Below are positions 2,219 through 31,252 of a stretch of 36,951 nt of DNA, one piece after another. Origin of the DNA: Myxococcaceae bacterium (GTDB lineage: Bacteria > Myxococcota > Myxococcia > Myxococcales > Myxococcaceae); the NCBI GenBank assembly GCA_019694595.1, contig JAIBBQ010000045.1, forward strand, positions 1-36,951, written 5' to 3'. A program made the position numbers and the translations under genes. How positions within the stretch are numbered: position 1 is the first letter of the stretch; the number at the start of each line of letters is the position of its first letter. The notes under the pieces are model-generated. The model was given only the letters and a program-made list of their open reading frames with translations. It was not told the origin of the DNA and did not search any database.

Positions 2219-2309
2219 TGCGCTTTGCCCCCCAGTGAGCGTTCGGTCTCTCGATCCGAGGACCCTCCGTTGGACGGGGCGGGCCAGGCGAAGCCGGCCA
2301 AGCCCCGCC

Positions 2310-2339: not shown

Positions 2340-2376
2340 ACGAACGAGGGGACGAACGAGGGGACGAACGAGGGGA
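2334..2376. repeat. 12-bp tandem repeat (about 3.6 copies)
   Basis: The unit gaggggacgaac occurs at 2334, 2346 and 2358, followed by a partial copy from 2370. It ends right at the stop codon of the minus-strand lipoprotein gene (2377-2379) and overlaps the right arm of the inverted repeat. Apart from these repeats and the 22-bp array, I see nothing in 2018-2376. Confidence 0.9.
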
Positions 2377-3612: not shown

Positions 3613-3643
3613 GTGCTCGAGCCCCCTCACCACGGGCGGGCTG

Positions 3644-4243: not shown

Positions 4244-4248
4244 GACGG

Positions 4249-5061: not shown

Positions 5062-5063
5062 GT

Positions 5064-5600
5064 CTAGAACCGCCAGCCGATGTTGAGGCCGATCCGGTAG
5101 GTGACACCGTTCCCCGCGATGGGGATGTCGATGGCGCCTTCCAGACCGGCGATGAGGTGCCGGTTGAACATCATGTCCACCGCGGCGATGGGCGACAGGC
5201 CGAAGCGCACGCCGGCGAGCGGGTCGGTGATGATGCCCGCGCGCAAGCCGAGCGAGCCGCTGACCGGCCAGGTGGCGGTGCGGAAGCGGGGCCCGAGCAG
5301 GCCGTGGAACCGCTGCGAGTTGAAGGCGTAGCTGCCGTGCAGGTCCATCAGGAACCAGTCGGTCATCCAGTACGAGGCGGTGCCGCCCATGTAGAGCGGG
5401 GCGCCGCTGCCGCCCAAGGGGGTGTTGTTGATCGCCCCGCCGAAGTCGAAGGCCAGCGAGAAGCTGCCCGACAGCGGCTTGTCGTACCCGCCCTTGCCCC
5501 ACTCCGAGTTCTCGGGGCCATCGGTGCGACCCCGGTCCTGGGCGAAGGCAGTGGCAGACAGCAGCACGGCGGCGACGGCGAGCAGTGAACGAGGGCGCAT
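5064..5600 (-). CDS. Small outer-membrane beta-barrel protein
   Basis: This encodes a 178-residue protein with a classical signal peptide (MRPRSLLAVAAVLLSATAFAQ, cleavage after AFA or AFAQ). The mature part has alternating hydrophobic strands rich in Gly, aromatic residues and turns, and ends GLNIGWRF, a C-terminal Phe as expected for substrates of the BAM machinery. The length fits an eight-stranded barrel such as OmpA/OmpW-type proteins, though no specific family is evident. It is the first gene of the four-gene minus-strand operon. Its promoter should lie in the 154-nt divergent gap (5601-5754), which contains a slightly AT-richer patch around 5665-5680. The ribosome-binding site is weak. 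Confidence 0.8.
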   Translation of the reverse strand: MRPRSLLAVAAVLLSATAFAQDRGRTDGPENSEWGKGGYDKPLSGSFSLAFDFGGAINNTPLGGSGAPLYMGGTASYWMTDWFLMDLHGSYAFNSQRFHGLLGPRFRTATWPVSGSLGLRAGIITDPLAGVRFGLSPIAAVDMMFNRHLIAGLEGAIDIPIAGNGVTYRIGLNIGWRF

Positions 5601-5754
5601 GGAATCCGTGGGGAGCAGCGAGGTTCGGCCTTGCAGAAGATGCGCTTTCAGACGGAAGAGGGCCTGGAATATTCACCAACGGCCCGGATCCGCAAACCCC
5701 CAAGAGCAGGTGTCTGTTCGAAAGAGGCTCTGATATGGGCCTGGGTCAAGTCCC

Positions 5755-6132
5755 GTGGCCAAGAAGATCCTCCTCATCGACGACAGCGAGATCACGCTCC
5801 AGCTCGAGCGCGCGGCGCTCGAGGCCCGTGGCTACGAGGTGCAGGCGGCCTCGACCCTGGTGGAGTTCGAGAAGCTGCTCAAGGTGTTCCGGCCGGACCT
5901 CATCCTGACCGACCTCCACATGCCCGAGGCCAAGGGCACCGACATCTGCCGTACCCTGAAGAACGAGTACGACACCCAGGACATCCCCATCGTCATCTTC
6001 AGCTCGCTCGACGACGAGCAGCTGGGGAAGCTCGCCGAGCAGGTCGGCGCCGACGGGTTCCTGTCCAAGGCCAACGGCCTCGACGCGCTCGGCGAGAAGG
6101 TCGACGAGCTGGTCGAGTCGATTCTCTGGTGA
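5755..6132 (+). CDS. Single-domain (CheY-like) response regulator
   Basis: This 125-residue receiver domain has no output domain. The acidic pair Asp9/Asp10, phospho-acceptor Asp53 (LTDLHMPE), Ser83 (IFSS, the Thr/Ser switch) and Lys105 (LSK) are all present, so it should be phosphorylated by a histidine kinase. None is encoded in the window. The start is GTG 5755. An upstream ATG (5735) is out of frame, and the ribosome-binding site is poor. The stop is three nt before the next gene, so the two are likely co-expressed. It may act by protein-protein interaction. Confidence 0.93.
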   Translation: MAKKILLIDDSEITLQLERAALEARGYEVQAASTLVEFEKLLKVFRPDLILTDLHMPEAKGTDICRTLKNEYDTQDIPIVIFSSLDDEQLGKLAEQVGADGFLSKANGLDALGEKVDELVESILW

Positions 6133-6135
6133 CCC

Positions 6136-7704
6136 GTGGGCCGCTGGTTCCTCGCGGCGCTCGCCCTGGCCGCCTGTCGTACCGGTGAGCCTCGCGGCAA
6201 GGACGCGGCGCCCCCGGCCGAGCAGCAGCACGCGGTGGTGGTGCTGTCCAGCGAGCTCAAGGGCTACGTCGGCCCCTGCGGCTGCTCCGAGAACATGCGC
6301 GGGGGCCTGGCGCGCGCCGCGGCGCAGGTGGCCGCCGCTCGCACCGGGCAGGCGCCTTCGCTCTTCCTCGACCTGGGTGACGCGCTCTTCGGCAGCCGAG
6401 AGCTGCCCGAGGCCGCGGTGCCCCAGCAGGAAGCGAAGGCCCGCGCCATCGCGAAGGCGTTCTCCGCGATGCACCTCGACGGGCGGCTGCCCGGCCCGCT
6501 CGACGACGCGCGCGGCGAGGCGCTGCGGTCCTCGCTCGCCCTGCCCGAGGTGCCCAGCGGCCAGCCGGCCCTCTTCCACCTCGGGAAGCTCGAGCTCGCC
6601 CTGGTCTCCGGGCCCGATGGCCAGACGCTGGCGGCCCAGGCCGCGCTGGCGCGCACCCGCGGGGCAGGCTTCGTCCTCGGCGCATACCTCGGCCCCTTCG
6701 ACGAGGCGCTCAAGCAGGTGACCGAGGCGACCGGGGTGGACTTCGTGGTGGTCGCCCGCTCGAAGGACGAGCTGAGCGGCGAGCAGAATCGCCTGGTGCG
6801 CGCGCCGGTGCCGATGGCGCAGATGCAGAGCAAGGGGCGCTCCCTCCTGCGGCTCGACTTGAGCGCGATCGGCCCGGGCCGCTTCGAGCTCCTGCGCGGG
6901 GCCGCGGAGCAGGAGCGCGACCTCAAGGCGCTCGACGAGCGCATCGAGCAGCTGCGGCGTCAGGTGAACGCCCCGGGCCTGGCCGACGAGCTCAAGGCGC
7001 TGCGCAAGTCGAAGCTCGAAGAGATCATCGCCCGCCGGGAGGCGCTCGCCGAGACGCCGGTGGCCGCGCCCACCGACAAGAACGGCGTCGCGGTGCGCTT
7101 CATCCCCCTGGAGTCGAACTTCCCCGAAGACGGCGCGGTGAAGGAGATCCTCACCGGGTACGACCGCGAGGTCGGCGAGCTCAACCTCGCCTGGGCGAAG
7201 GCGCACGGCACGGCCTGCCCTGCCCCGGCCGCTGGCCAGTCGGCCTACGTGGGCACCGCGCGCTGCCTGGACTGCCACGAGGAAGCGGCCGCCGTCTGGC
7301 AAGGCAGCAAGCATTCCCAGGCGCTGCCCACGCTGGAGAAGGCGGGCAAGCAGTTCCACCTCGACTGCATCGGCTGCCACGTCACCGGCTGGCAGCGCCC
7401 GGGCGGGACCTGCCGCATCGACCAGACGCAGCTGCTCGCCAGCGTGGGCTGCGAGGCGTGCCACGGCCCCGGGAGCGTGCACGCGGAGGACCCGGCGACC
7501 GCCAACATCCTCGACGGGAAGGCGCCCGAGGGCTGCCGCACCTGCCACGACCCCGAGAACTCGCCGCACTTCGACTTCGAGAGCTACCTGGCCAACATCA
7601 TCGGCCCCGGGCACGGGCAGCCTGCACCGCCCCGGCCCGACGCCGGGGTCCGCCCCCCGCCCCCTCCGCCGAAGAGCCCTGCCGGAAAGCCCAAGCGGAA
7701 ATAG
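6136..7704 (+). CDS. Tetraheme cytochrome c lipoprotein with degenerate 5'-nucleotidase-like domain
   Basis: This encodes a 522-residue lipoprotein with its lipobox at ALAAC (Cys14). Residues about 33-255 resemble the N-terminal metallophosphoesterase part of UshA-like proteins and contain the GPCGCSxxxxGGLAR motif (47-59) typical of cytochrome-linked versions. A LDLGD motif survives (78-82), but the expected DxH metal site and GNHE motif are not visible, so catalysis is doubtful. A charged helical segment (about 255-305) may be a coiled coil. The C-terminal third has four CxxCH heme sites (377-381, 411-415, 439-443, 467-471), like cytochrome c554-type domains, then a Pro-rich tail. The likely role is electron transfer at the periplasmic side of a membrane, with partner unknown. 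The start is GTG 6136, three nt after the response regulator stop. It is followed by the lytic transglycosylase after 58 nt. Confidence 0.87.
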   Translation: MGRWFLAALALAACRTGEPRGKDAAPPAEQQHAVVVLSSELKGYVGPCGCSENMRGGLARAAAQVAAARTGQAPSLFLDLGDALFGSRELPEAAVPQQEAKARAIAKAFSAMHLDGRLPGPLDDARGEALRSSLALPEVPSGQPALFHLGKLELALVSGPDGQTLAAQAALARTRGAGFVLGAYLGPFDEALKQVTEATGVDFVVVARSKDELSGEQNRLVRAPVPMAQMQSKGRSLLRLDLSAIGPGRFELLRGAAEQERDLKALDERIEQLRRQVNAPGLADELKALRKSKLEEIIARREALAETPVAAPTDKNGVAVRFIPLESNFPEDGAVKEILTGYDREVGELNLAWAKAHGTACPAPAAGQSAYVGTARCLDCHEEAAAVWQGSKHSQALPTLEKAGKQFHLDCIGCHVTGWQRPGGTCRIDQTQLLASVGCEACHGPGSVHAEDPATANILDGKAPEGCRTCHDPENSPHFDFESYLANIIGPGHGQPAPPRPDAGVRPPPPPPKSPAGKPKRK

Positions 7705-17898: not shown

Positions 17899-19638
17899 TC
17901 AGCGCTCGGCGAGCAGGAGCTTCAGCTCCTTGATGCGCCGGGTGACGAAGTCGCGCTCCAGCGAGGCGAAGGCCTCCGGCAGCAGCTCCTTCGAGGTGCA
18001 CTCGGCGACCGCGACCAGGTTCTGCAGCTCGACCTCCAGCGGGTAGGTCGGCGGCAGGAAGTCCTTGAGCACCGCTTCCACGTCGCCGGCGACCACGTCC
18101 TTGCGGCCTTCCGTCACCGCGCGGAACTTGGACCGCACCAGGATGGCCTCGATGTCGGCGCCGCTCATCACCCGGCCCTTGGTGAGCTCCCCGAAGTTGG
18201 GCACCTCGACCGGCACGTGGGTCTTCTTCTGCATCGCCTTGAACAGCTCGAGCCGGTCGGCGTCGGTCTGCGGGTAGAAGAGCGCCAGGTGCTCCTCGGC
18301 GCGCCCCTGCCGCTTGAGGTCGATGGGCAACAGGTCCGGGCGGCAGGTGAGCAGGAACCAGACGATCTTCCCGCGGTACTCGGTGTTGCCCATGAAGCTG
18401 GCGATGGCCGCGAAGATGCGGCTCGAGGTGCCCGAGTCGCCCGACGCGTCGCGGTTCCCCAGGAACGCGTCCGCCTCGTCGATCATCACCGCCACCGGCC
18501 AGAGCGCCTTGAGGAGGTTGAAGATCTTCTCCAGGTTGGCCTCGGTCACGCCCTGCCACTGGCTGCGGAAGTTGAGGAACTTCACGCAGGGAATGCCGAT
18601 CTCCCCGGCGAAGCAGGTGACCATGAAGGTCTTGCCGGTGCCCACCGGCCCCGACAGCAGGTAGCCCATGGGCATCACGTCGAGGTGGCCGCCGCGCAGC
18701 GCGGACGCCCCCGCCCGCAGGAGCTTCTTGGCCTTGGCGTGCCCCGCCACCGTGTCCAGCGTGTACGGCGGCTCGACGAACTCCAGGAGCCCGTGGCACT
18801 CGGCCTGGATGATCTCCTTCTTCTTGTCCTTGAGGATCTCGGGGGTGATCTTCACCTTGGCTTCCAGCGCCTCGGTGAGCAGTCGGTCGAGGTTGATGCG
18901 CGAGAGGCCTGCCGTCATCTTCGCCAGGCCCGCCGCCGGCACTGCGGAGACCTGCGAGAGCTTCTGGCCGTCGAGCTTCCAGCTCACGTAGTCGAGCCGC
19001 TCCGCCTCGGTGGGCAGCGAGATCTCGATGTTCGACACGTACGGGTTGCGCGAGAGCCGCGGCGAGAGCTCCGCCAGGTTCTCCACGATGAGGATGATCG
19101 ACAGGTCGCCCGCGAGGAACTGCGGGTCCTGCGACCACTTCACCAGCGTGGTGAGCGCGAAGCGGTCCTCGGCCGAGAGGTGCGAGAGCTCGCCGGCCGG
19201 CGCCAGGGTCTCCGCGAAGTCGATCACCAGCGCCAGCGACTTGCCGTCGGCCATGCGGATGCGCAGGTAGTTCTCGAGCACCTGCAGCGCCCGACCCGGG
19301 TCGCGCGGCATGGTGCGCGCGTAGTCGGTGCCGTAGAGCGTGTCGTAGCCCGTCATCACCCGCTGCAGGTCCTTCTGGGTCTCCGGCTCGCTCGCGCGGA
19401 TGCCCGAGCTGCGCTCGTAGAACACCACGTGGTCGCGCCCGCCGAAGAGCTCCTCGGCGAGGAAGGTCCTCAGGTTGCCGAAGTCGCGCCCACCGTCGGA
19501 CGCGGTGGTCGGCAAGAGGTCGCGCACCGCGCCGAAGAGCACGAAGGTGCTCACCGTCTTCGTGTAGTACTTCTGCGCCAGCTTCCGTGCCCACTCGGGC
19601 AACGAGGCGAGCGGGTCCTGCGATTGCTTCTTGGCCAT
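17899..19638 (-). CDS. Classical-clade AAA+ ATPase with degenerate N-terminal AAA-like half
   Basis: This 579-residue cytoplasmic ATPase has an intact C-terminal AAA module. It shows Walker A GPVGTGKT (330-337), Walker B VAVMIDEADAF (382-392), a second-region-of-homology-like segment TCRPDLLPIDLKRQGR (431-446) with candidate arginine fingers Arg443/Arg446, and sensor-2-region GADIEAI (493-499). The N-terminal half lacks a P-loop but retains AAA-like landmarks (LALVIDFAET at 135-144; ENLAELSPRLSRNP followed by LPTEAERLDYV), resembling a decayed AAA domain as in Ycf46-like proteins. It may remodel or unfold a protein target; substrate unknown. The start is ATG 19638 with GAGGCG upstream. It lies 23 nt after the PEGA-kinase stop, so the two form an operon. 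Confidence 0.88.
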   Translation of the reverse strand: MAKKQSQDPLASLPEWARKLAQKYYTKTVSTFVLFGAVRDLLPTTASDGGRDFGNLRTFLAEELFGGRDHVVFYERSSGIRASEPETQKDLQRVMTGYDTLYGTDYARTMPRDPGRALQVLENYLRIRMADGKSLALVIDFAETLAPAGELSHLSAEDRFALTTLVKWSQDPQFLAGDLSIILIVENLAELSPRLSRNPYVSNIEISLPTEAERLDYVSWKLDGQKLSQVSAVPAAGLAKMTAGLSRINLDRLLTEALEAKVKITPEILKDKKKEIIQAECHGLLEFVEPPYTLDTVAGHAKAKKLLRAGASALRGGHLDVMPMGYLLSGPVGTGKTFMVTCFAGEIGIPCVKFLNFRSQWQGVTEANLEKIFNLLKALWPVAVMIDEADAFLGNRDASGDSGTSSRIFAAIASFMGNTEYRGKIVWFLLTCRPDLLPIDLKRQGRAEEHLALFYPQTDADRLELFKAMQKKTHVPVEVPNFGELTKGRVMSGADIEAILVRSKFRAVTEGRKDVVAGDVEAVLKDFLPPTYPLEVELQNLVAVAECTSKELLPEAFASLERDFVTRRIKELKLLLAER

Positions 19639-19661: not shown

Positions 19662-21710
19662 CTAAGGCTTCTTCTTCAACGAGGAGTTGAGCCGCGTGTA
19701 GTCGGTCCCCTCCTTCACCTCGACGGTCTCGACGAACGTCTCGTAGCCGTCGGCGAGCACCATCACCGTCACCTTCCCGGCGGGCACGCGCTTGAGCTTG
19801 GGCCCCGGACGAATGGGGCTACCGTCGTCCTCGAGCAGCGGCTGGCCGTTGACGTTGAGGCTCAGGCCCGGGGCGTCCGGCAGCTCGATGTAGAGCAGGC
19901 CTTCGGGCTTCTTGCCCAGCACCAGCACCAGCACCGTCACGAGCACCAGCAGCAGCACCGACGCCGCAGCGAGGATCGGCAGCCGGTACGGGCGCAGCAG
20001 CTCCATCAGGTTCGCGGAAGGGGCCTTCGCCGTCGGAGCCGGAGCCGGAACCGAGGCCCTGGGCTCCGGCATCTGCGCGACGTTGGTCGCGCTCGCCGGC
20101 TCGTCGGCGGCCGAACGGCCCGCCGGTTCCGCCTGGACCCGACCGGGCGAGCCCGCCACCGTCGACTCCGGGCTCAGGTCGGGCCTGGGCAGCGGGTTGG
20201 CGATCGCCCCGCTCTGCGAGCGCCGCAGCACCGGCGGCGGCTGCTGCGGCAGCGTGGCCATGCCCAGCACCGTCGCCTGGTCGGCCTGGTCCACCTCGTC
20301 GCGGAGCTGCAGGTTCGAGCGGCTGGGCGACGCCAGCGTCGCGTCGAGCCCGATGCCCGGGTCTTCCACCACCGCGGGCATCTCGGTGGGCACCGTGGGG
20401 CGCGGGTCGTGCGCATCGCGCCCGGCGCCGTGCGCGAGGCCCGACGGAGGCATCGGCGGTGACGGCCGGAAGGGCGGCTCCTGCACCAGCTGCGTCGACT
20501 GGTGGGAGTCCTTGTCGTTGGTGAGCATCGGCGCCACCGCCGTGAGCTTGATGCTCGGCGTGGAGCGCGGCGGCGCCATCGGGGTCGCCGCGGGCACACC
20601 GGTCGCCAGGCCCCGGGGAGGTACACCGCGGGCAGGCGCCGCGGCGGGTGGCTGCACCGGGCGCTCGGGCACGAACTCCTCGCCGGTCGACGGGTCGGCG
20701 TCGGGGTCGCCGTACTGGACCCCTTCCGGCTTCGGCACGTCGGCGTAGTCCTTGAGTCTGGTCTTCTCGCGCTCGAACTCCTCGGCGAACGTCGACTTCA
20801 TGTACTGCGCGAGGTCCTTGCGGCCGAAGACGGCTTCCGAGGTGATGAGGAAGCGCTGCAGCGCCTCGCCCACCTCGCTGGCGTACTGGTAGCGCTCCTC
20901 GACGTCGCGGGCGAGCGCCTTCATCACGATCTTCTCCAGCGCCTCGGGAATGCGCCGGTTGTACGTGGTGGGGGGCAGCACCTCGACCTTGCGCACCTTC
21001 TCGAGCACCGAGAAGTCGCTGTCGCCCACGAAGAGCCGCTCGCCGGTGAGCATCTCGTACAGGCAGATGCCGATGGCGAAGACGTCGCTGCGGCGGTCGA
21101 GCGGCAGGCCGCGGATCTGCTCCGGGCTCATGTACCCGAACTTGCCCTTGAGGATGCCGGCCTGCGTCTTGGTCGCCTTGCCAGCGGCCTTGGCGATGCC
21201 GAAGTCGATGACCTTGATCTCTCCGTCGTAGCTGACGAGCAGGTTCTGCGGGCTCACGTCGCGGTGGACGATGTTCATCGGCCGGCCGGCGCCGTCGGAC
21301 GCGCGATGGGCGTAGTCGAGCCCCTCGCAGCACTTGGCGATGGCGTAGCAGGTGAGCGGAATGGGGGCCGGCTCCCCGCGCTTGCGGCAGCGGTCGAACA
21401 CCGCGCGCAGGTCCTTGCCGGAGATGTACTCCATGGCGATGAAGTACGAGTTCTGCACGTGCGACAGCTCGTAGATCTGCGCGATGTTGGCGTGGTTCAG
21501 CTGAACGGTGATCTTCGCCTCGTCGATGAACATCGAGATGAACTCGGCGTCCTCGGCGATGTTGGGGAGGATCCGCTTGATCGCCACCACCCGCTCGAAG
21601 CCCCCGGCCCCGAAGGACTTCGCGCGCCACACCTCGGCCATGCCGCCGATGTTCACGCGGTCGAGCAGCAGGTACTTGCCGAACGGAATCGGCGCTCGCT
21701 TGAGGCTCAC
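19662..21710 (-). CDS. Transmembrane Ser/Thr protein kinase with PEGA-like domain
   Basis: This encodes a 682-residue kinase. Motifs are a Gly-rich loop variant NIGGMAEVW (20-28, lacking the third Gly), Lys45 in AIK, Glu64 of helix C, HRDVSPQN (149-156, catalytic Asp151), DFG (169-171) and SPE in place of APE (195-197). The Ser-Pro-Gln-Asn loop is characteristic of many myxobacterial kinases. A long Pro/Ala/Ser-rich linker (about 320-570) leads to one transmembrane helix (about 578-599) and an extracytoplasmic PEGA-like beta domain (about 602-678, with LSLNVNGQPL and VPAGKVTVMVLADGYE), which may sense or bind the cell envelope. The start is GTG 21710. It is followed closely by the AAA+ gene and preceded by the pspA cluster with a 91-nt gap. 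Confidence 0.93.
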   Translation of the reverse strand: MSLKRAPIPFGKYLLLDRVNIGGMAEVWRAKSFGAGGFERVVAIKRILPNIAEDAEFISMFIDEAKITVQLNHANIAQIYELSHVQNSYFIAMEYISGKDLRAVFDRCRKRGEPAPIPLTCYAIAKCCEGLDYAHRASDGAGRPMNIVHRDVSPQNLLVSYDGEIKVIDFGIAKAAGKATKTQAGILKGKFGYMSPEQIRGLPLDRRSDVFAIGICLYEMLTGERLFVGDSDFSVLEKVRKVEVLPPTTYNRRIPEALEKIVMKALARDVEERYQYASEVGEALQRFLITSEAVFGRKDLAQYMKSTFAEEFEREKTRLKDYADVPKPEGVQYGDPDADPSTGEEFVPERPVQPPAAAPARGVPPRGLATGVPAATPMAPPRSTPSIKLTAVAPMLTNDKDSHQSTQLVQEPPFRPSPPMPPSGLAHGAGRDAHDPRPTVPTEMPAVVEDPGIGLDATLASPSRSNLQLRDEVDQADQATVLGMATLPQQPPPVLRRSQSGAIANPLPRPDLSPESTVAGSPGRVQAEPAGRSAADEPASATNVAQMPEPRASVPAPAPTAKAPSANLMELLRPYRLPILAAASVLLLVLVTVLVLVLGKKPEGLLYIELPDAPGLSLNVNGQPLLEDDGSPIRPGPKLKRVPAGKVTVMVLADGYETFVETVEVKEGTDYTRLNSSLKKKP

Positions 21711-21801: not shown

Positions 21802-22539
21802 TCAGGGGGCGCCGGCATCCTCGCCATCGAAGGGCGCACCTTCCTCATCCGCCTCGGGCGCCGGCGCCGCGCTCACCACGGTGGAGAGCGCATCGGGGCC
21901 CTGGCTCACCAGCCCCGGCTCCCCGAAGCGCCGCCCCAGGGGCAGCCCGACCGCGGTGAACCAGGCGAGCTTCCGGTCGGCCGCCACGCAGTAGACGATG
22001 GTGCCCGCGGGCAGCCCGGCCACCTCGGTCGCCGGCCCCGCGCAGCCGGTGCGCGCTTCCCAGGTCCAGCGCGCGAGCGGCTCGCCCTTCACCAGGTACG
22101 GCGGGGGCGGCAGGCCTTCGAGCAGCGGCTCCACCGCACGCGCAGGGGGCACGGCTTCCACCGAGGCCAGGCTGGCCGCTTGCTCCGCGAGATGCCTCAG
22201 GCTGAGCGCCACCCGCTCGGCGCGGCCCAGCGGGTCGCCGCGGCCGAAGACCGCGAAGAAGTCGACGAAGAAGACCACCAGCGCCACCACCGGCAGCAGC
22301 CGGTACCCGCGGAACTCGGCCCCTCGCCGGCGCACCACGCCCACCACCGCGCCCACTGCGGCCGCGGCCAGCGCGGCGAGCGCCAGCGCCGGGAAGCCCG
22401 GGCTCGGCAGCGCACTCATGGCCGCCACCGGGGCGGTCGGCGCCCGCAGGGCGTCGAGGAGGTCTCCCCCGTAGAGCCAGCCGAGCGCGAGCACGCACAC
22501 CGCGTCGGCGGTGAGCCAGCCCTTCGGCAGCGCGCTCAT
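21802..22539 (-). CDS. Small multi-pass membrane protein of the pspA-ABC cluster
   Basis: I do not recognise this 245-residue protein. It has three or so hydrophobic segments in the first half (about 10-28, 48-68 and 80-100), then an extracytoplasmic-looking domain (about 110-215) with two Cys (TGCAGPATEVAGLPAGTIVYCV) that could form a disulfide, and an acidic C-terminal tail. The VYCVAADRKLAWFTAVGLP segment looks like a small beta domain. The ATG at 22539 overlaps the permease stop (ATGA), so it is translationally coupled to the ABC transporter and probably works with it. It is the last gene before the 91-nt gap to the kinase. Confidence 0.78.
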   Translation of the reverse strand: MSALPKGWLTADAVCVLALGWLYGGDLLDALRAPTAPVAAMSALPSPGFPALALAALAAAAVGAVVGVVRRRGAEFRGYRLLPVVALVVFFVDFFAVFGRGDPLGRAERVALSLRHLAEQAASLASVEAVPPARAVEPLLEGLPPPPYLVKGEPLARWTWEARTGCAGPATEVAGLPAGTIVYCVAADRKLAWFTAVGLPLGRRFGEPGLVSQGPDALSTVVSAAPAPEADEEGAPFDGEDAGAP

Positions 22540-23813
22540 CCCGCGAGCACCCGCGCGGGCTCGAGCCGCGCCGCCCGCCGGCTCGGCCCCACCGCACCCA
22601 CCACCGCGGCCAGCGCGCCCAGCGCCACGCCCGCGAGCGGCAACCAGAGCGGCACCCGGAAGAAGGCGTCGGGCTTGAAGGGGAAGTCGGGCACGAAGCG
22701 GGCGACCGCCAGGTCCACCGCGAAGGCCGCCGCCACCGCGAGGGCGGCCCCCAGCGCGCCACCCGAGGCCCCCAGCACCAGCGCCTCGGCGCGCACCAGG
22801 CGGGCGACGTCGGCCCGCGACGCCCCCACCGCCCGCATCACCCCCAGCTCGCGGCTGCGCGCGCGCACCGACGCCGACAACGCGTGGGCGATGTTGAGCG
22901 CCGCCAGCAGGCAGATGAGCGCCGACAGCAGCGCCATCGCCAGGGTGGTGATGGCCACCGCGGCCCCGGCGTTCTCCGACAGCCGGCGCTCGGCGTCGTC
23001 CACCCGGAAGCCCATCTCCTTCACCGCCGCCACCACCCGCGGCACTTGCGCGGGGTCGCTGGTCTCCAGCGTCACCCCGGTGAAGGTCGCAGCGTCGGCG
23101 CCGTGGTCCTTGTTGATGCGCCGGGCCGCCTCGAGCGGAATGGTGACGCCCGCGAGCAGGCCGCGCTCGCTCACCCCCACCAGCTGCATGGTGCCCGGCG
23201 TCGACGGCCCCACCGCGGACGCGGTGACGAACGAGCGGTTGAGCTCCACCGGAAAGGAGAAGCCCACCAGCATCGCCGGCGACAGCTGCGGCAGCCCGCG
23301 AGCCGGCGCGAAGGTCTTGTTGTAGATCTCGATGAGCCGCGTCGCCGCCACCGCGGGAATCGGCTGCCCTGCCCCCGGGTCCTCGAACTTCCCGAGCTGC
23401 ACGTCGGCCTGCACCAGTGACGGGTCGACGCCCACCGCGATGACCTCGAGCCCCATGTTGAGCTGCTGCCCGAAGAAGTCGCCGCGGTAGCGGCACACCG
23501 CGGGCACCCTGACGTTCATCTTGCGGTGCGCCCGGTCCACTCCCGGCAGCGCCGCCAGCCGGTCCACCGCCGCCTGGTCGAGGGTGCCGCCGAGCAGGCC
23601 ACCGAGCGCCACCTGCGGAGGCACCACCTCCACCAGCCTGGTGTCCACCGGGAAGACCTTCTCGCGCACCACGCGGGAGATGCCCAGGCCGAGCGCCACG
23701 AAGAAGACGAGCGACGAGACGCCCACCGCGATGCCGAAGAGGCTCGAGAGCGCGCCGCGGCGGTCGCGCCGGAGGTTGAGCCGCACCAGCGCCGAGACCG
23801 CCGAGGCCTTCAT
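22536..23813 (-). CDS. FtsX-like ABC transporter permease (MacB/LolCE type)
   Basis: This 425-residue permease has the FtsX/MacB layout. There is one N-terminal transmembrane helix (about 18-45, FGIAVGVSSLVFFVALGLG), a large periplasmic domain (about 50-285), then three C-terminal helices. These include the region with SRELGVMRAVGASRADVARLV, the conserved coupling segment of this family, and the final SRRAARLEPARVLAG. Such type VII transporters do not move substrate through the membrane but transmit mechanical work to periplasmic partners, for example in lipoprotein release, efflux or amidase activation. The start ATG 23813 overlaps the ATPase stop, and its own stop overlaps the next gene (ATGA). 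The substrate is unknown; the neighbouring lipoprotein is the obvious candidate partner. Confidence 0.93.
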   Translation of the reverse strand: MKASAVSALVRLNLRRDRRGALSSLFGIAVGVSSLVFFVALGLGISRVVREKVFPVDTRLVEVVPPQVALGGLLGGTLDQAAVDRLAALPGVDRAHRKMNVRVPAVCRYRGDFFGQQLNMGLEVIAVGVDPSLVQADVQLGKFEDPGAGQPIPAVAATRLIEIYNKTFAPARGLPQLSPAMLVGFSFPVELNRSFVTASAVGPSTPGTMQLVGVSERGLLAGVTIPLEAARRINKDHGADAATFTGVTLETSDPAQVPRVVAAVKEMGFRVDDAERRLSENAGAAVAITTLAMALLSALICLLAALNIAHALSASVRARSRELGVMRAVGASRADVARLVRAEALVLGASGGALGAALAVAAAFAVDLAVARFVPDFPFKPDAFFRVPLWLPLAGVALGALAAVVGAVGPSRRAARLEPARVLAG

Positions 23814-24469
23814 ACGAGCTGCCCCTGGTCGAGCCGCAGCACCCGCTGGGCCGCCGCCGACACCCGGTCCTCGTGCGTCACCGCGAGAATGGTGAGCCCT
23901 TCCCGGTTGAGGCGCTGGAACAGCTCGATGATCTCCGCGCCCGTCGCGCCATCGAGGTTCCCCGTGGGCTCGTCGCACAGCAGCACCGGCGGCTTGAGGA
24001 AGAGCGCCCGGGCGATCGCCACCCGCTGCCGTTCGCCGCCCGACAGCTGCGCGGGGTTGCGCTGCGCCTTCGCCGCGAGCCCCACCCGCTCGAGCGCTTC
24101 CAGGGCCCGCCGGGGCGCGTCGGCCGCGTGCGCGCCGAAGAGCTCGGGCAGCGCCACGTTCTCCGCCGCGGTGAGCCCGCTCACCAGGTGGAACGACTGG
24201 AAGACGAACCCCACCGTGGTGTTGCGAAAGCGCGCCAGCGCCTCGTCGCTCGCCCCGTCGAGCCGCTGCCCGGCGACCGTCACCTGTCCGGCGTAGTCGG
24301 TGTCCAGCCCGCCGAGGATGTGCAGCAGCGTGGACTTGCCGCTGCCCGAGCGGCCCATCACCGCCACCAGCTCGCCGCGAGCGACGCGGAGGCTGGCGCC
24401 GCTCAGCACCGCCAGCGACTTCCCTTCTCCGTCCTCGAAGGTCTTCGACAGGCCCGACGCCTCGATCAC
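23810..24469 (-). CDS. MacB/LolD-type ABC transporter ATPase
   Basis: This is a 219-residue nucleotide-binding subunit with complete motifs: Walker A GRSGSGKST (39-47), Q-loop Gln91, signature LSGGERQRV (142-150), Walker B VLLCDEPTGNLD (162-173) and the switch His199. The spacing and PTGNLD motif place it in the LolD/MacB/FtsE group that partners FtsX-like permeases. The start is GTG 24469 in a GTGA overlap with the upstream lipoprotein gene. A much longer in-frame extension exists upstream but is antisense-like composition in the lipoprotein gene and is not credible. The stop overlaps the permease ATG. Confidence 0.95.
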   Translation of the reverse strand: MIEASGLSKTFEDGEGKSLAVLSGASLRVARGELVAVMGRSGSGKSTLLHILGGLDTDYAGQVTVAGQRLDGASDEALARFRNTTVGFVFQSFHLVSGLTAAENVALPELFGAHAADAPRRALEALERVGLAAKAQRNPAQLSGGERQRVAIARALFLKPPVLLCDEPTGNLDGATGAEIIELFQRLNREGLTILAVTHEDRVSAAAQRVLRLDQGQLV

Positions 24470-26064
24470 TTCTTCGCCCCCGTGAGGCTCAAGGTGAGCT
24501 GCAGCTGCACCGCGCCTTCCTTCGCCTCCGCGCCCACGGTGATGGCCTCGAGGTCGTCGGTGGCGTCGAGCCAGCGCAGCGTGGTCGCCTTGATGGCGAA
24601 GCCGCCCACGCCCCACGCGTCGCTGGGCAGCTCGCGCACCGCCGCCGACAGCGCGTGCAGGTCGACCACCGCCGCCACCGCGCGCTGCTCGAGCACCGCC
24701 TTCAAGCCCGCGGGGAGCGGCCCGTCGCCGTCGCTCTTCGCCTGCAGCGCCCCCAGCACGCGCGGCAGCGGCGAGCCGAAGGCCACCGTGTCGCCCTGGG
24801 CGGCGAAGTGCACCCCTTCGCCCGCGCTGTAGGTGGTGACGTAGACGGCCTGGCCGTCTTTCTCCTGCTTGTCGATCTTCGCCCCGAAGCGCGGCCCCGC
24901 CTGGGCCAGCGTCTCCAGCGATTTCGGCAGCGAGGCCGCGTCCTTCACCTTCGCGGCGCCGGTGAGATGCACCCAGCGGAAGGGGTTGGTGCGGCGCACG
25001 TCGAAGGCGGGGACCCCGTCCATGCGCGCGGTGGGGGCCAGCGAGAGCGCCGCCACCGCGCCGGGCGCCACGTTGCCGAAGAGCTGAGCCTTCCAGTCGA
25101 TGCCGCTCTCGCCCAGCGCCTTGGCGAGGTACGGGCCCACCAGCGCGTCGGCGTAGGGGGTCAGCTTCTGCGGGTCGCCCGCGAAGCGCGCCACCAGGAA
25201 CGCGTCCTTCGGCAGCCGGCCGAGCAAGGGTGCGACCTGCGCGGTGCGGGCGAGCACCTCGAGCGCCTGGGGGTCGCCGGTCCACGGCGCGTCGAGGGTG
25301 ACGCTCAGCCCCTGCGCGCTCAGACTCGCCGCGGCCGCCACCGCGCCCACCGGCCCACGCAGCACCGGCGAGCCGGGCGGCAGGTAGACCAGCAACTGCC
25401 GCTCCGCGGGCAACCGCCCGAGCGCCTTCGCCCACTGCGCATCCTTGCCCAGCGCGTCCATGTCGCCGAGCTGCGCCCAGCCCGAGAGCTTGTTCACCGC
25501 CTCGTCGACGCCCACCAATGCGTAGCCCTTGGTGAAGACCCAGCCGAAGCGGGCCGCCGCGCCCTTGGGGGCCAGGGTATGCACCACCAGCGTGCCGGCC
25601 TTGAGCTCGCCGGCCTCGGTGGCCCCCAGCCGCGCCTGCGCGAGGCGCTGGAAGAGCGCGCTCACCTTGCCTTCGTCGGCCACCGGCAGCGCGAGGAAGC
25701 CGGTGCCGTCGAGCATCACCGCGCCGCCGGCGCCGCGGTCCGGCGCGATGCCGGCGCCCTGGAGCGCTTCCTTCGAGCGCACGTCGATGCCCACGCTCTG
25801 GATGAGCGCGTTCACCAGCTCCTGCCCCGAGCCGAAGCCCTGGAGCTGCGCGGCGAAGCCCGCCACCTTGAGCTGCTGCAGCACCTCGAGCTTCTGCCCC
25901 AGCGCGTGCACCTGCGGCACCACCACCACCGCCACCGCGCCCTTGGGGAGCACGTCTTCCACCTGGACCTGGGCGCTGGACGCGGTCTTTCCGCAGCGGC
26001 TGCACCCCGCGGCGAGCACCACCACCATGGCCGACAGCCACACCCTGCGAGCCAACGCGTTCAT
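24466..26064 (-). CDS. Large lipoprotein (DUF3352-like) of the pspA-ABC cluster
   Basis: This encodes a 532-residue lipoprotein with lipobox LAAGC (Cys21). The mature N-terminus (VLPKGAVAVVVVPQVHALGQKLEVL) resembles DUF3352-type exported proteins, which start with a 'P.da..vv.v.d' strand followed by long amphipathic repeats. Two approximate halves have similar 'PLLGRLPKDAFLVARF' and 'GFLALP' strands, consistent with an alpha/beta domain duplication. Function is unknown. It sits between the coiled-coil membrane protein (ATGA overlap) and the ABC ATPase (GTGA overlap), so it is almost certainly part of the same complex or pathway. A periplasmic partner or cargo of the transporter is a reasonable guess. 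The family name is a weak match made by eye. Confidence 0.78.
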   Translation of the reverse strand: MNALARRVWLSAMVVVLAAGCSRCGKTASSAQVQVEDVLPKGAVAVVVVPQVHALGQKLEVLQQLKVAGFAAQLQGFGSGQELVNALIQSVGIDVRSKEALQGAGIAPDRGAGGAVMLDGTGFLALPVADEGKVSALFQRLAQARLGATEAGELKAGTLVVHTLAPKGAAARFGWVFTKGYALVGVDEAVNKLSGWAQLGDMDALGKDAQWAKALGRLPAERQLLVYLPPGSPVLRGPVGAVAAAASLSAQGLSVTLDAPWTGDPQALEVLARTAQVAPLLGRLPKDAFLVARFAGDPQKLTPYADALVGPYLAKALGESGIDWKAQLFGNVAPGAVAALSLAPTARMDGVPAFDVRRTNPFRWVHLTGAAKVKDAASLPKSLETLAQAGPRFGAKIDKQEKDGQAVYVTTYSAGEGVHFAAQGDTVAFGSPLPRVLGALQAKSDGDGPLPAGLKAVLEQRAVAAVVDLHALSAAVRELPSDAWGVGGFAIKATTLRWLDATDDLEAITVGAEAKEGAVQLQLTLSLTGAKK

Positions 26065-26807
26065 CGCACCCTCACCCCTTCCGGCCGGAACCCGGCCGCC
26101 TCGTCCAGCTCCAGGAACTGCTGCATCTCTCTCGCCGACGCCTGGGTGGTGGCCACGTCCTTCGCCACCGCGTCGAGTTGCCGCGTCACCACCTCGGGGT
26201 CGCGAATGGCGATCGACTGCTCGAAGGCCAGGCGCAGCACGTCCTCGATGGTGGCGAGCTGGTGGCTCAACAGCTCGCGGCTCTCCGAGGCCTGGTGAAA
26301 GCGTTCCCGTCGCTGGCGAAGAATGTCCACCCGGCGCTCCTTCACCTCGCGCAGCTTCGCGTTCTCTTCCCGCGCCACCTCGGCCTGGAGCGCGGCCAGC
26401 TCCACCTCGACGGCCTGACGGTCGTCCGCATTCAGATAGGTGCGGTAGGCGTTGAGGCTCGAGAGCAGCCGCACGAAGGCGTCGATGAGCGCGTCGAGCC
26501 GGTGCTCGCTGGAAGCGACCAGCACTTCGCCCCCGGGGAGCGCCCGGTAGGCTGCCAGAAGCTTCGCCTTGAGGTCTTCCAGCGCCTGCACCTGGGCGAG
26601 CTGCGACGGCGCCAGCGCCTCGAGCCCCCGGCGCCCCGCCTGACCGTCCCGGGCGGCGCCGCGGCGCGACAGCGCGCCGTACACCGCCGTCAGCACCGCC
26701 GCCCCCAGGCCGAAGCCGATGGGCACCGGGCTGTCGAGCACCGCGGACGCAGCCATCGCGCCCACCAGCGACAGCCAGGTCGCGGGCGCGGTCAGCGAAC
26801 GCGCCAT
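26061..26807 (-). CDS. Membrane-anchored coiled-coil protein next to pspA
   Basis: I do not recognise this 248-residue protein. Two closely spaced hydrophobic segments (about 8-24 and 28-46) form an N-terminal hairpin anchor. The rest (about 60-235) is helical and heptad-rich, for example [28 protein letters not shown] and a long charged stretch, predicted to be coiled coil facing the cytoplasm. The start ATG 26807 is four nt after the pspA stop, and the stop overlaps the lipoprotein ATG. A membrane hairpin plus coiled coil beside pspA suggests it recruits or regulates PspA at the membrane, by analogy with PspB/PspC. No sequence similarity to PspB/C is visible. Confidence 0.78.
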
Positions 26808-26811
26808 CGAG

Positions 26812-27546
26812 CTACTTGACCTGCTCCTTCTTCCCGATGGTCTTCTCGCCGCCGCTCGACACGTCGGACACCGGCGCCGGGCTCTCGAGACCCATCTCCA
26901 TCTTGAACTGCTTCACCAGCTCGTTGGCCTGCATCTTCTCGGCCTCTTCCTCGATCTTCACCGCGGAGTGGTCGACCGACTCCAGCGCCATGCTCATGCG
27001 CGCTTCGTTCACCGCGGTCTGCTCCTCGATCTTCCGCAGCATCTCGTCGTGGGTGGCGTCGATGCCCGCGACCTCGAACGACTCCATGGCGTCGGCGACC
27101 TTCGCCTGCCACTTCGAGCGGCGCGCGTCGCGGATGGCGGCCATCGCCTCGGCGGTCTTCTTGTCCTTCTCGCGCATGAACGCCTTCTTCACGTTCAGCG
27201 CCTTGTCGTAGGCGGCCTTGGCGGTCGCGAGCTGCGCCTCGTTGCGAGCCAGCGCGCTCTTCTCCATCTGCAGCCGGGTGGCGTAGCTGGCCGCGAGATC
27301 GTCGCGCCCACCCTGGATGGCGGCCTTCACCTTGGCGGTGAGCTCACCGACCTCCTGCTTGTACTTGGCGTTCTCCTTCTCGAGCAGGGTGAGGTTCGCC
27401 CGGACCATGGCGATCGACTCGTTCATCTTGGGGACCTGGTCGTTCAGGTCGCGGATGTTCTGCTCGAGGATCAGCTCCGGATCCTCGATGGAGCTGACGA
27501 AGAAACCCACGAAGCTGCGCATGGCGCGCCGAAACCTGTCCCACAT
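26812..27546 (-). CDS. pspA: PspA/IM30 (Vipp1) family membrane-remodelling protein
   Basis: This 244-residue protein is a PspA/IM30 member, a bacterial ESCRT-III-superfamily protein that assembles into rings or rods on the inner-membrane inner leaflet to limit proton leakage and remodel membrane. It shows the N-terminal amphipathic helix (1-18, [16 protein letters not shown]), the family hallmark [18 protein letters not shown] (21-38), then long charged helices to about 215 and a short flexible tail. The start is ATG 27546, with GGGAG about 9 nt upstream. It is the first gene of a tightly coupled six-gene series ending at 21802. No PspF, PspB or PspC is present. Confidence 0.95.
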
Positions 27547-27591
27547 GAGAGGTGCTCTCCCGGCACTTCGAGCCTGACCGCCAACGTCCCC

Positions 27592-27640
27592 TTCAAAGAC
27601 ACCGGACTCTACACACTTTGTTTCACAACCGGTGGGAGAC
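27592..27640 (-). promoter_or_regulatory. Relatively AT-rich upstream region of the pspA cluster
   Basis: The 144-nt gap (27547-27690) upstream of pspA contains a patch much richer in A and T than the surrounding sequence, including (on the minus strand) TTGTGAAACAAAGTGTGTAGAG at 27610-27631. This is where a promoter for the six-gene cluster is expected. I could not recognise a sigma-70 pair with correct spacing or a sigma-54 GG-N10-GC element. Confidence 0.3.
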
Positions 27641-27690
27641 CGCAGACCTTCCCCACCCAATACGCGGGTCCTTTCAACCGCTTGCATCAC

Positions 27691-29292
27691 CTACCGGAGG
27701 GAGGCGAACAGCTCCCAGAGGCTGCGCACCCGGAACCGGGCCACACGCCCCCCCGGCCGCACCTGCAAGGCCAGGGTGCCGTCGGCGAGGCGCCCTTCGA
27801 CGCCGTCGCCTTCCGCGGTCAACAGCGGGGTCGCGAACTGGCTCAGCGCCACCACGCAGCCCTGCGGCGCGTCCACCTCGACCTCGAGCGCGCGGAAATG
27901 CGTCTCCTCGCCGAGCTCGGGCCGCTGTCGCACCACCGTGCACCCGTCGACACGCACCAGCGGCGTGCGCGGCGGAGGCTCGTAGCCCACCGCCACCGGC
28001 ATCATCTCCCGCGCCGTCCACGGGTCGTCGAGGTGGGTGACGTGCTGCGCGTACACCTCGGGGGTGTAGCGCTGGTAGTGAATCGCCTGCGCCCGAACCG
28101 CGAGAACCAGGTGCAGCACCGCCACCACCGCCCACACGAGCGCGCCCGCGAGCCGCCGCCGGAGCCCGCCGCGCGCCGCCGCCCCCCAGAGCGCCGCCGC
28201 GAGCAGCGCCACCGCCGGGGTGAGAAACCCCACCAGCCTCCAGGGGAACTGCAGCAGCGTGGCCTTGGGCACCGCGCGGTAGAGCGGCATCGACGCCTCG
28301 AGCTGCAGGAACCCGTACAGCGCGATGGCCGCCGTGAGCAGCACCGCCGGCCCGAGCGCCACCCGGCGCCGGTCCTTCGCCAGGGCGACCACCGCCCCCA
28401 GCGCGAGCGAGGCCCAGAGCCAGCGGCCCACCTCCACGCTCACCCCTTGCCACTGCCGCCCCCACTGGAACGCCGGGTCCGCGAAGTAGCCGGGCCAGGC
28501 GACCAGCTGGTCCCACGGCAGGAACATGTTGAGTGCGTCGACCCGGAAGTACGGGCCCAGCTTGAGCACCAGCACCGCCACCGGGCCCGCCAGCACCAGC
28601 ACCACCGCGCCGGCGATGGCCGCGTCGACGACGGCCGCCTTGCGCCCCGTGAGCCGCAGGCGCAGCGCGAAGGCGAGCGCCACCAGCGGCGCGGCGAAGA
28701 GGAACATCACCATGTGCGCGTGGAAGAGCGCCGCCAGCCAGAGCCCGACCGAGAGGTGCGCCCGCTCCCCGCGCACCCAGCGCAGGAGCCCCTCGAAGAG
28801 CCAGGGGGTGAGCAGCACCGCGGTCGCTTCCGCAGGCGACCCACGGATGAGCCAGTCGGTCATCACGTAGGGCGCGGTGACGAAGGCCCACGCCGCCGCG
28901 AAGGCCACCCACGCGTCGGCGCCCAGGCCGCGCGCGGCCCGGTACAGCCCCGCCATGCCCAGCGCCCCGAAGCACCACAGCCCCAGGCGCAGCCCGGCGT
29001 CGGTGCCGAAGGGCACCGCGAAGGCCCCGGCCACGAAGTTGAACAGCCGGTGGTACAAGAGCGGCGCCGGCGTGCCGTGCCCCTGGAAGCAGAAGCGCGA
29101 CCACAGCGGGAAGACGTCGCCTTCCAGGAACGCGCGGCGGAAGTGCTCCACGCGTGAGAAGGCGCCCAGGCCTTCGTGGTTCTCCGGCCAGTCGGCGTGG
29201 AGCAACGTCGGCCCCATCGCCACCAGTGCCCCGGCGAGGAACGGCAACGCCAGGAGCAGCGCCCGCCCGACCTTCGCCGCGAAGGGCCTCAC
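27691..29292 (-). CDS. Polytopic membrane protein, PTPS_related-like (GT-C-type glycosyltransferase-like)
   Basis: This 533-residue protein has about ten or more hydrophobic segments and a soluble C-terminal domain. After the first transmembrane helix comes an extracytoplasmic loop with [33 protein letters not shown] and [16 protein letters not shown]. That pattern (acidic residues, then FPLW, then a Gly/Pro-rich turn and YHR) resembles PF10131 'PTPS_related' membrane proteins and the GT-C glycosyltransferase fold more generally, which use lipid-linked sugars at the membrane surface. Activity is not proven. The start is GTG 29292 in a GTGA overlap with the Nat-type permease stop, making it the third gene of that operon. 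A YfhO-like assignment is possible. Confidence 0.72.
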
Positions 29293-30512
29293 GCCTCCGG
29301 CCCTCTGCCCAGGAGCGCGCGCAGCCCGCCGCCGCCGAAGCGCACCGCCTCGCTGGCCGCCGCCTTCGCCACCAGCCGCAGCGCCAGGCCACAGAAGACG
29401 AGCGTGCTCGCCACGGTGAGCGCGGCGGGCCCCACCGTCGCCGCCGACAGCACCACCGCCTTCACCAGCAGCGCCACGTTGAGCAGCGGCACGCAGGCGG
29501 TGAAGGCGTTGAGCTCCACGCCGGGCATCAGCGCCAGCATGCCAGGCAGCGAGCCCAGCATGGTGAAGGGCGTCAGCAGCGCCTGCGCTTCCTTGAAGGT
29601 GCGGGCCACCGACGCCACCGCGAGCGCCACGCCGCTCACCATGCCCGCCGCCGCCACCAGGGCCACCAGCAGCACCGCGAGCTGGGCGGGGCTGAAGTGC
29701 ACCTGCGCCGACTGGCCGCTGTCCAGCGCCAGCCCGATGCGGAAGGTCACCGCCATCGACGCCAGGTTGGCGAGCGCGGTGCACGAGGCGAGCGTGGCGA
29801 CCGCGAGGTACTTGGCGGCCATCACCTGCCAGGGCTTCACCGGCGCCACCAGCACCGTCTCCCAGGTGCCCCGCTCGCGCTCGCCGGCCGTCATGTCGAT
29901 GGCCGGGTACAGCGCGCCCACGAAGAGCATCAGCACCAGGATGACCGGGAGCAGCCGCGAGGCGATGAGGGGCCCGAGGTCCTTCTCGAAGTCCACGTCC
30001 TCGGGTGCGACCTTCACCGGGCTGACGAACTCCGGCGTCACCTTGAGGTCCTCGAGGCGCACGGTGAGCCCGCGCTCGCCCACCGCGTCCAGCGTGCGCC
30101 GCAGCCGCTCCAGCGCTTCCATCGAACGGTCGTGCCGCTTGGTGTAGCGCACCGTCACCACCGCCTGCCCCCGGCCGTCGAGCGCCGCCACCGCGCCGTC
30201 GCTCGCCTCCACCACCGCCCACACCTGCTTCTCGCGCAGCGCCTCGAGGCCCGCCTCGGCCGTCATGCGCCGGTACACGGTGAAGGCCGGCACCGGCTGC
30301 CGCGCGAGGAGCGCCGCCGCCTCGTCGCTCGCCACCGCCACGTCCAGGCTCTCCCGCGCCAGGCGCTCGCGGCCGGCCGCCATCACCCCGCCGACCAGCA
30401 GCAACGTCAGCGGGTAGAGCACCACCGGCAGAAGCGCCATCAGGAGCACCGTGCGGCGATCGCGGATCGCCTCCGTCAGCTCGCGCCACCAGAGCAGCCG
30501 CACCGGGCTCAC
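29289..30512 (-). CDS. ABC-2-type permease, NatB-like
   Basis: This 407-residue permease has the NatB/YhaP arrangement: one N-terminal transmembrane helix (about 24-46), an extracytoplasmic domain (about 50-180), then five further helices (from about 185) and a cytoplasmic tail. Family landmarks include DRRTVLLMALLPVVLYP near the N-terminus and MTAGERERGTWETVLVAPV (about 228-246), the conserved cytoplasmic helix preceding the second transmembrane block. NatAB exports Na+ in Bacillus, but relatives move other substrates, so the cargo is unknown. The start is GTG 30512 in a GTGA overlap with the ATPase stop. Its stop overlaps the start of the polytopic membrane protein. Confidence 0.9.
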   Translation of the reverse strand: MSPVRLLWWRELTEAIRDRRTVLLMALLPVVLYPLTLLLVGGVMAAGRERLARESLDVAVASDEAAALLARQPVPAFTVYRRMTAEAGLEALREKQVWAVVEASDGAVAALDGRGQAVVTVRYTKRHDRSMEALERLRRTLDAVGERGLTVRLEDLKVTPEFVSPVKVAPEDVDFEKDLGPLIASRLLPVILVLMLFVGALYPAIDMTAGERERGTWETVLVAPVKPWQVMAAKYLAVATLASCTALANLASMAVTFRIGLALDSGQSAQVHFSPAQLAVLLVALVAAAGMVSGVALAVASVARTFKEAQALLTPFTMLGSLPGMLALMPGVELNAFTACVPLLNVALLVKAVVLSAATVGPAALTVASTLVFCGLALRLVAKAAASEAVRFGGGGLRALLGRGPEA

Positions 30513-31252
30513 GCGGCCTGCCCTCCCCCGCGCGCGTAGTGCAGGAAGGCCGCGGTCAGCGTGTGGGCGCCGCTGCGCTCCACCAGCGCCTGCGGCGTGC
30601 CTTGGGCCACCACCTTGCCGGCGCGCAGGAACACCAGCCGGTCGCAGAGGTACTCGGCCTCTTCCAGCCGGTGCGTCGAGAAGAGCACCGCCTTGCCGCC
30701 CGCCTTCGCCCGCTGCACCAGCTCCAGGATGCCCACCGACGCCAGCGGGTCGAGCGTCGCGGTGGGCTCGTCGAGCACGTAGGCCGGAGGATCGGCCACC
30801 AGCGCCCGGGCGATCGACACCCGCTGCTTCTGGCCGCTCGACAGCTGCCCGCAGCGGCGGTCGAGCACCGCGCCGAGCTCGAGTTCCTTCGCCAGCACCT
30901 CGGTGCGCGCGGCCACCACCTCGCGCGAGAGGCCATTGAGCTGCCCGAAGACCGAGAGCACCTCGCGCGCAGTGAGCCGCTCGAACAGCCCCGTCGACGA
31001 GGTGAGGAGCCCCAGCTTGCGGCGTGCCTCCAGCGGGTCCTGCTGCACGTCGACGCCGCAGACCAGCGCGCGCCCGGCATGGGGCGTGAGCAGCCCGGCC
31101 AGCATGCGCAGGGTGGTCGTCTTGCCCGCGCCGTTGGGGCCGAGGAGCCCCACCACCTCGCCGGGCGCCACGGTGAAGGACACGCCGTCGACTGCCAGGA
31201 GCCCCGCGAAGCGACGACTCAGCTGCTCGACGGCGAGGGCGGGCGACGACAC
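30509..31252 (-). CDS. ABC transporter ATPase, NatA-like
   Basis: This 247-residue nucleotide-binding protein has Walker A GPNGAGKT (38-45), Q-loop in the LGLLTSSTGLFERLTARE segment (80-97), signature LSSGQKQRV (137-145), Walker B YVLDEPT (158-164) and switch His194. The GLLGPNGAGKTT form and the LTARE motif fit the NatA/CcmA group that pairs with ABC-2 permeases, as found downstream. The start GTG 31252 (VSSPALAVEQLS) places the first beta strand normally. Upstream in-frame sequence lacks a start with matching composition. It is 41 nt downstream of the repeat-domain lipoprotein stop. Confidence 0.93.
   Translation of the reverse strand: MSSPALAVEQLSRRFAGLLAVDGVSFTVAPGEVVGLLGPNGAGKTTTLRMLAGLLTPHAGRALVCGVDVQQDPLEARRKLGLLTSSTGLFERLTAREVLSVFGQLNGLSREVVAARTEVLAKELELGAVLDRRCGQLSSGQKQRVSIARALVADPPAYVLDEPTATLDPLASVGILELVQRAKAGGKAVLFSTHRLEEAEYLCDRLVFLRAGKVVAQGTPQALVERSGAHTLTAAFLHYARGGGQAA

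Follow-up and report, generated by a model that had tools for sequence, protein, structure and literature searches.

A conserved pspA locus of Myxococcaceae with an AAA+ ATPase and a LolCDE/MacB-type ABC module

A cluster of eight genes headed by pspA resides on the minus strand of contig JAIBBQ010000045.1 (assembly GCA_019694595.1), a stretch of 36,951 nucleotides from a member of the Myxococcaceae that we refer to as the window. PspA, a membrane-repair protein, is a rod-forming member of the ESCRT-III superfamily, whose ATPase is Vps4, and how bacteria turn over their ESCRT-III polymers (PspA and Vipp1), for which no Vps4 is known, is a question still under discussion (PMC11746142). We tentatively favour, at a little under even confidence, the interpretation that this cluster is a myxobacterial PspA/AAA+ membrane-remodelling locus coupled to a mechanotransmission ATP-binding cassette (ABC) complex of the LolCDE/MacB type. 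In what follows, labels beginning with f, L, G and C denote our families, loci, genomes and contigs, respectively.

Gene content of the locus

The pspA gene (P0001, 26812-27546, 244 aa) is taken to start with the ATG at 27546 (MWDRF...), a position with which the starts in relatives agree. After a gap of 4 nt it is followed by the gene for a protein that we call CC (P0002, 26061-26807, 248 aa), which carries an N-terminal hydrophobic hairpin and a helical bundle and is a candidate anchor or partner of PspA. An ATGA overlap (26064-26061) joins CC to LIPO (P0003, 24466-26064, 532 aa), a lipoprotein of a family related to DUF3352; a GTGA overlap (24469-24466) joins LIPO to ATP (P0004, 23810-24469, 219 aa, GTG start), an ABC ATPase of the LolD/MacB type. 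The remaining junctions are again ATGA overlaps: one (23813-23810) leads into PERM (P0005, 22536-23813, 425 aa), an FtsX/LolCE/MacB-type permease, and one (22539-22536) into SMALL (P0006, 21802-22539, 245 aa), a membrane protein. An initial annotation of this DNA had reported these six genes, and their order, strand and overlaps are all present in the sequence between 27546 and 21802. Its six-gene frame was nevertheless too small, because the same strand continues past 21802 with STK (19662-21710, 682 aa), a membrane Ser/Thr protein kinase 91 nt beyond SMALL, and then, 23 nt further, with AAA (17899-19638, 579 aa), an AAA+ ATPase. Beyond it, the following gene is predicted to run in the other direction, and therefore AAA forms the natural end of the cluster.

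The first protein is a clear PspA/IM30 family member, with 66.8 bits against the PF04012 Pfam profile (cut-off 33.9) in what is the only match to this profile in the genome, and its closest solved structures are those of Vipp1 and PspA. The effector is therefore shared with the classical PspF-PspABC system of E. coli, whereas the window protein scores only 14.7 bits against TIGR02977, the proteobacterial PspA equivalog, far under the cut-off of 242.95. As the initial annotation had held, the classical partners are missing: no PspB, PspC or PspF domain is found in the eight cluster proteins or in the three genes upstream, and the cluster also differs from the E. coli system in having no sigma-54 site.

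Co-occurrence of pspA and the AAA+ ATPase gene

The AAA+ ATPase, whose presence follows that of pspA best, had been overlooked in the initial annotation, as had the kinase and a solute-binding protein of relatives. AAA matches PF00004 with 75 bits at residues 326-452, and its single Walker A motif (GPVGTGKT, residue 330) lies in the C-terminal half of the protein and is conserved in 32 proteins. The C-terminal AAA+ domain is thus clear, and the N-terminal half has no Walker A motif; in a check for a duplicated AAA+ domain, an hhalign comparison of the two halves gave no significant match. STK matches Pkinase with 124 bits, and its weak PEGA-like C-terminus reaches 19.7 bits, just under the cut-off of 20.8.

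Presence of the AAA+ protein was scored at an E-value threshold of 1e-100 across 116 genomes of relatives, of which 83 have the AAA+ protein, 82 have PspA and 99 have LIPO. Both pspA and the AAA+ gene occur in 77 genomes and neither in 28; six have only the AAA+ gene, most of them fragmented or incomplete assemblies, and five have only pspA. The resulting association has a Fisher p of ~4e-16, uncorrected for phylogeny. Where family f5 has pspA, in its one such genome, a divergent pspA directly adjoins a divergent AAA+ gene (L143, G109:C122, 3525-6158); both genes are otherwise missing from this family.

Conservation among Myxococcaceae

A scan of named genomes yielded 56 loci from Myxococcaceae and close relatives, including Myxococcus xanthus; one record among them is titled Comamonas. 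Upstream counts draw on the 45 loci with at least 2.6 kb of upstream sequence, downstream counts on the 39 with at least 8.5 kb of downstream sequence, and counts over both flanks on 36. The gene for pspA lies upstream of CC on the same strand in 44 of 45 loci, and in 42 of 45 a gene for an NMT1/THI5-type membrane-anchored binding protein stands between the two. Downstream of CC, LIPO is found in 37 of the 39 loci, ATP in 38, PERM in 36, SMALL in 28, the kinase in 36 and the AAA+ gene in 33, some absences being ends of the available locus; SMALL was not found in several lineages. All nine genes share one orientation in 22 of 36 loci, in the full order pspA, NMT1-type binding protein, CC, LIPO, ATP, PERM, SMALL, STK and AAA.

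The cluster is thus not a chance assembly, since its gene order recurs across the Myxococcaceae and the three overlaps from LIPO to SMALL are identical in M. xanthus. The co-occurrence across genomes that the initial annotation had put forward as its check is borne out by the near-constant upstream pspA and, in most loci, the downstream transporter genes, which together make it plausible that PspA and the ABC complex are functionally linked. The 'full' translational coupling that it had described holds in the window, but in relatives the gap between CC and LIPO ranges from about 50 to 4800 nt.

The window locus itself has no NMT1-type binding protein gene, and the only relative of that protein in the genome is a 30%-identical one on contig C105. 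The gene is also absent from L096, L099 and L114, and from the locus of family f10 (L129), in which pspA, CC, LIPO, ATP, PERM, SMALL and the kinase gene are present as in the window. A TelA/XpaC identity had been entertained for the gene that separates pspA from CC in relatives and was rejected, as the genome has no TelA and the gene encodes an NMT1/THI5-type binding protein. The record titled 'Comamonas sp. KCTC 72670' (L075, BNCN01000001.1) has a locus layout nearly identical to that of Myxococcus and is probably mislabelled.

Related operons with a different transporter

More distant families of the phylum carry operons (L132, L135, L136 and L139) in the order PspA, PBP-OmpA, SsuC-like permease, SsuB-like ATPase, CC and AAA+. 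Two further loci (L131 and L137) are of the same kind and have a different helical protein near the PspA slot, and in L133 this protein follows the AAA+ gene. In the first of these arrangements PspA, CC and AAA+ thus stay together while the type of transporter changes.

A gene set of this kind has been described. Ravi et al. 2024 report operons that contain PspA, 'Snf7 homologs with a TM segment', a protein with two AAA+ domains and ABC/PBPB-OmpA genes (example OGG56892.1), an association of PspA with the two-AAA+ protein in some clades, and a PspA-Snf7 neighbourhood in Deltaproteobacteria (PMC11237479). The distant myxobacterial loci match this gene set, and the window locus likewise brings together PspA, a transmembrane helical protein, ABC components and an AAA+ protein in which a single active site is evident. 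It differs in having a LolD/FtsX-type module and a DUF3352-like lipoprotein as its ABC part, and in the addition of a kinase; the binding protein of its myxobacterial relatives has no OmpA domain and is absent from the window locus, and CC is at most a candidate Snf7 homolog. The locus is accordingly a variant of a described type. Its myxobacterial organization was not encountered in the literature that we searched, which yielded no paper on a Myxococcus PspA locus, on DUF3352, or on a system that combines PspA and LolCDE.

A paralogous locus in the same genome (L071, G000:C105:1-7835, 1340-6273) represents the transporter version of the operon. It encodes a predicted helical protein of 229 aa in the PspA slot, a PBP-OmpA fusion, an SsuC-type permease, an SsuB-type ATPase and a CC paralog (23% identity), and the 229-aa protein may take the place of PspA. 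The window locus looks like a derived variant in which the LolD/FtsX/DUF3352 module took over the transporter slot, where we infer the direction of change.

The PspA tail and the CC protein

PspA ends in a short conserved tail that follows a variable linker. In the window this tail reads EKTIGKK (residues 234-240, positions 26827-26847), and the motif KT[ILV]GKK occurs in all 51 PspA proteins from named loci (51/51), after a linker mostly of 15-16 and up to 27 residues. Variants are KTLG or KTIG in families f7 and f8 and K-x-LGP in the distant operons. By analogy with eukaryotic ESCRT-III proteins, which Vps4 recognizes through its MIT domain (PMC11746142), the tail is possibly a docking motif for the AAA+ ATPase. 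Both systems have an ESCRT-III superfamily protein with a conserved motif in its C-terminal tail, and an AAA+ ATPase that occurs together with it; here the AAA+ ATPase is a candidate partner of the tail.

CC is conserved beside pspA and matches no Pfam family. An AlphaFold model built from an alignment of 28 sequences reached a pLDDT of 82, compared with 62 in an earlier run without the alignment, and presents a confident helical bundle with helices at residues 8-24, 28-63, 67-88, 93-124, 127-146, 150-200 and 204-238. The N-terminal helical hairpin is less certain and reads as two transmembrane helices. The model resembles known helical bundles, with BAR domains frequent among the matches, at Z values of about 9-10.5 and a best value of 11.2, below the level that is trusted for such folds; a BAR-domain identity was dropped because unrelated helical models also reach this range. 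Profile searches of the PDB with CC, and likewise with LIPO, returned nothing credible. The earlier statement that the coiled-coil protein matches nothing stands for family assignments but not for genomic context, since Ravi et al. 2024 (PMC11237479) describe a 'Snf7 homolog with a TM segment' at the position that CC takes here. Loci L053, L054 and L055 of family f3 have a tandem pair of CC genes before the LIPO gene, and the second copy in such loci has diverged, with 22-24% identity to the window CC.

The transporter module

Pfam and NCBIfam agree with the initial annotation on the LolD-type ATPase and the FtsX-like permease, as they do on PspA. ATP matches ABC_tran with 118 bits and TIGR02211 (LolD) with 227.5 bits, under the cut-off of 307.75. 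PERM belongs to the MacB superfamily, with 59.7 bits to PF02687 (cut-off 25.5) and 27.4 bits to MacB_PCD (cut-off 27), and it reaches 57.6 bits against the LolCE equivalog, for which the cut-off is 362.45; its closest solved structures are YtrF, MacB, LolF and LolC. LIPO was correctly named a lipoprotein, as it has a clean lipobox (LAAGC, then SRCGK), and the lipobox and C-S-[RK]-C-G are kept in most relatives. DUF3352 (PF11832) matches six of 16 aligned members of the LIPO family, the best at 1.2e-9, and the window LIPO itself is unmatched. SMALL remains without a Pfam or NCBIfam family, as had been noted earlier, and its previously observed cysteine pair, Cys166 and Cys184, is invariant in 13 aligned sequences.

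With LolCDE and LolF-LolD systems the module has in common the ATPase and permease families and a lipoprotein partner, but it falls under both equivalog cut-offs and has one permease, and contig C361 carries a LolC/E-like gene that scores much more strongly, with the window PERM ranking 11th of 20 matches to the LolCE profile in the genome. With mechanotransmission transporters of the MacB and YtrF type it shares the FtsX domain and the MacB_PCD periplasmic domain, whereas its ATPase is unfused and a DUF3352-like lipoprotein replaces the MacA-type adaptor. Translational coupling makes the transporter a single unit; the pspA part forms a second one, joined to the first in most cases but not in all.

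The region upstream of pspA

The intergenic region 5ʹ of pspA (27547-27690, minus strand) contains the block GTGTAGAGT at 27615-27607 of the minus strand, about 60 nt before the pspA start. M. xanthus has a related block, GTGTAAGGT, about 40 nt before its pspA start, and many relatives have GTGTA..GT-like blocks 5ʹ of pspA, many of them also with GGCAAT and GCGTA-like boxes further upstream. The upstream block is promoter-like and perhaps an alternative-sigma promoter. No sigma-70 consensus site was found 5ʹ of pspA, and sigma-54 control was rejected because none of 47 pspA upstream regions has a site with at least 9 of 12 consensus positions.

Further upstream on the same strand (27691-31252) lie genes for a 533-aa membrane protein without a Pfam match, which ends 144 nt before pspA, and for an ABC-2 permease and its ATPase, which overlap by 4 nt. 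The ABC-2 pair also precedes pspA in some relatives (L037 and L038).

Proposed mechanism and alternatives

From the gene content, gene order, conservation and co-occurrence observed above we infer a mechanism, every interaction and activity of which is to be read as conditional. CC, the transmembrane helical bundle, would determine where PspA polymerizes on the cytoplasmic side of the inner membrane, and the AAA+ ATPase, possibly recruited by the KTxGKK tail, would remodel or disassemble the polymer as Vps4 does with eukaryotic ESCRT-III. The ABC complex, whose permease is presumably a homodimer because there is a single permease gene, would spend ATP on driving its periplasmic domains against the lipoprotein and would act on envelope lipids or lipoproteins, thereby sensing or relieving the stress that PspA answers. 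The periplasmic domains of PERM and the lipoprotein could act on the outer portion of the envelope or sense its state, and the kinase might adjust the system.

Several observations weigh against this interpretation. The co-occurrence of pspA and the AAA+ gene is in part shared ancestry, and four genomes of family f3 have pspA but no AAA+ match at E 1e-30. In the three of these that were read (G076, G085 and G088) PspA keeps its tail, which therefore need not bind the AAA+ protein; CC, the ABC ATPase or the membrane may be its partner instead. Unlike Vps4, the AAA protein has no MIT domain that Pfam detects at E 0.1. With respect to CC, hhalign finds no profile similarity to PspA and Pfam no Snf7 family match; a Snf7/ESCRT-III identity was likewise unseen among the ranked structural matches and was not adopted, although such absence is no proof. 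Finally, LIPO, ATP and PERM occur in families f4, f5, f6 and f9, whose sampled genomes have no pspA (G109 of f5 excepted), and so the ABC module has a function of its own.

This last point introduces a serious alternative, which we regard as possible: PspA, its anchor and the AAA+ protein would serve inner-membrane repair, a LolCDE-like transporter with a DUF3352 lipoprotein would serve lipid or lipoprotein traffic, and the two independent modules would share a locus for co-regulation under the same stress and make no contact. It is favoured further by Archangium, Hyalangium and others, in which other genes spanning 2-5 kb, with some predicted to have the reverse orientation, lie between CC and LIPO; by family f8 and one genome of f2, in which the pspA/CC part and the transporter part are on different contigs; and by G020 (L088), which keeps pspA, CC, the kinase and the AAA+ gene and in which the locus lacks LIPO, ATP and PERM. 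However, the parts are adjacent in families f1, f3, f7 and f10, beyond what co-regulation alone needs, and in f7 pspA directly precedes LIPO, with the CC and binding protein genes absent between them. The view in the initial annotation that the six proteins form one envelope device is unsupported as stated. Because the transporter genes occur without pspA, whereas the AAA+ gene tracks it, the locus is better described as modular than as an obligate six-part device.

A more specific form of the PspA/AAA+ interpretation, in which the AAA+ protein is a dedicated Vps4-like ATPase for PspA that binds KTxGKK on polymers and remodels them, and in which the ABC-lipoprotein complex and the kinase tie this remodelling to the periplasm, we consider doubtful. 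Quite unlikely, in our estimation, is that the locus is mainly an exporter or resistance system of the MacB/Bce/Ytr kind directed at membrane-active compounds, in which PspA and the remaining genes would provide damage control. The permease and ATPase do resemble YtrF, MacB and LolD, and myxobacteria make and meet many membrane-active compounds. However, the cluster genes scanned include no MacA adaptor or two-component system, and a single-copy PspA and an AAA+ protein that are strongly conserved across a family are more suggestive of core biology than of accessory resistance. A housekeeping lipoprotein-sorting (Lol) system that stands next to pspA by happenstance is very improbable, for although the ATPase is closest to LolD and a lipoprotein is co-encoded, the scores, the single permease gene and the stronger LolC/E-like gene given above argue otherwise, and this explanation offers no conserved reason for pspA, CC and AAA+ as neighbours.

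Implications

In M. xanthus, a genetically tractable laboratory organism, a pspA gene present in single copy is found side by side with an AAA+ ATPase conserved along with it, a putative anchor and a putative docking motif, and with all of these candidate parts together the turnover of bacterial ESCRT-III becomes directly testable. The locus thus offers a case in which ATP-driven control of bacterial ESCRT-III can be put to the test, and a good place to ask whether the polymers that these proteins form have a dedicated, envelope-coupled and ATP-driven remodelling machine.

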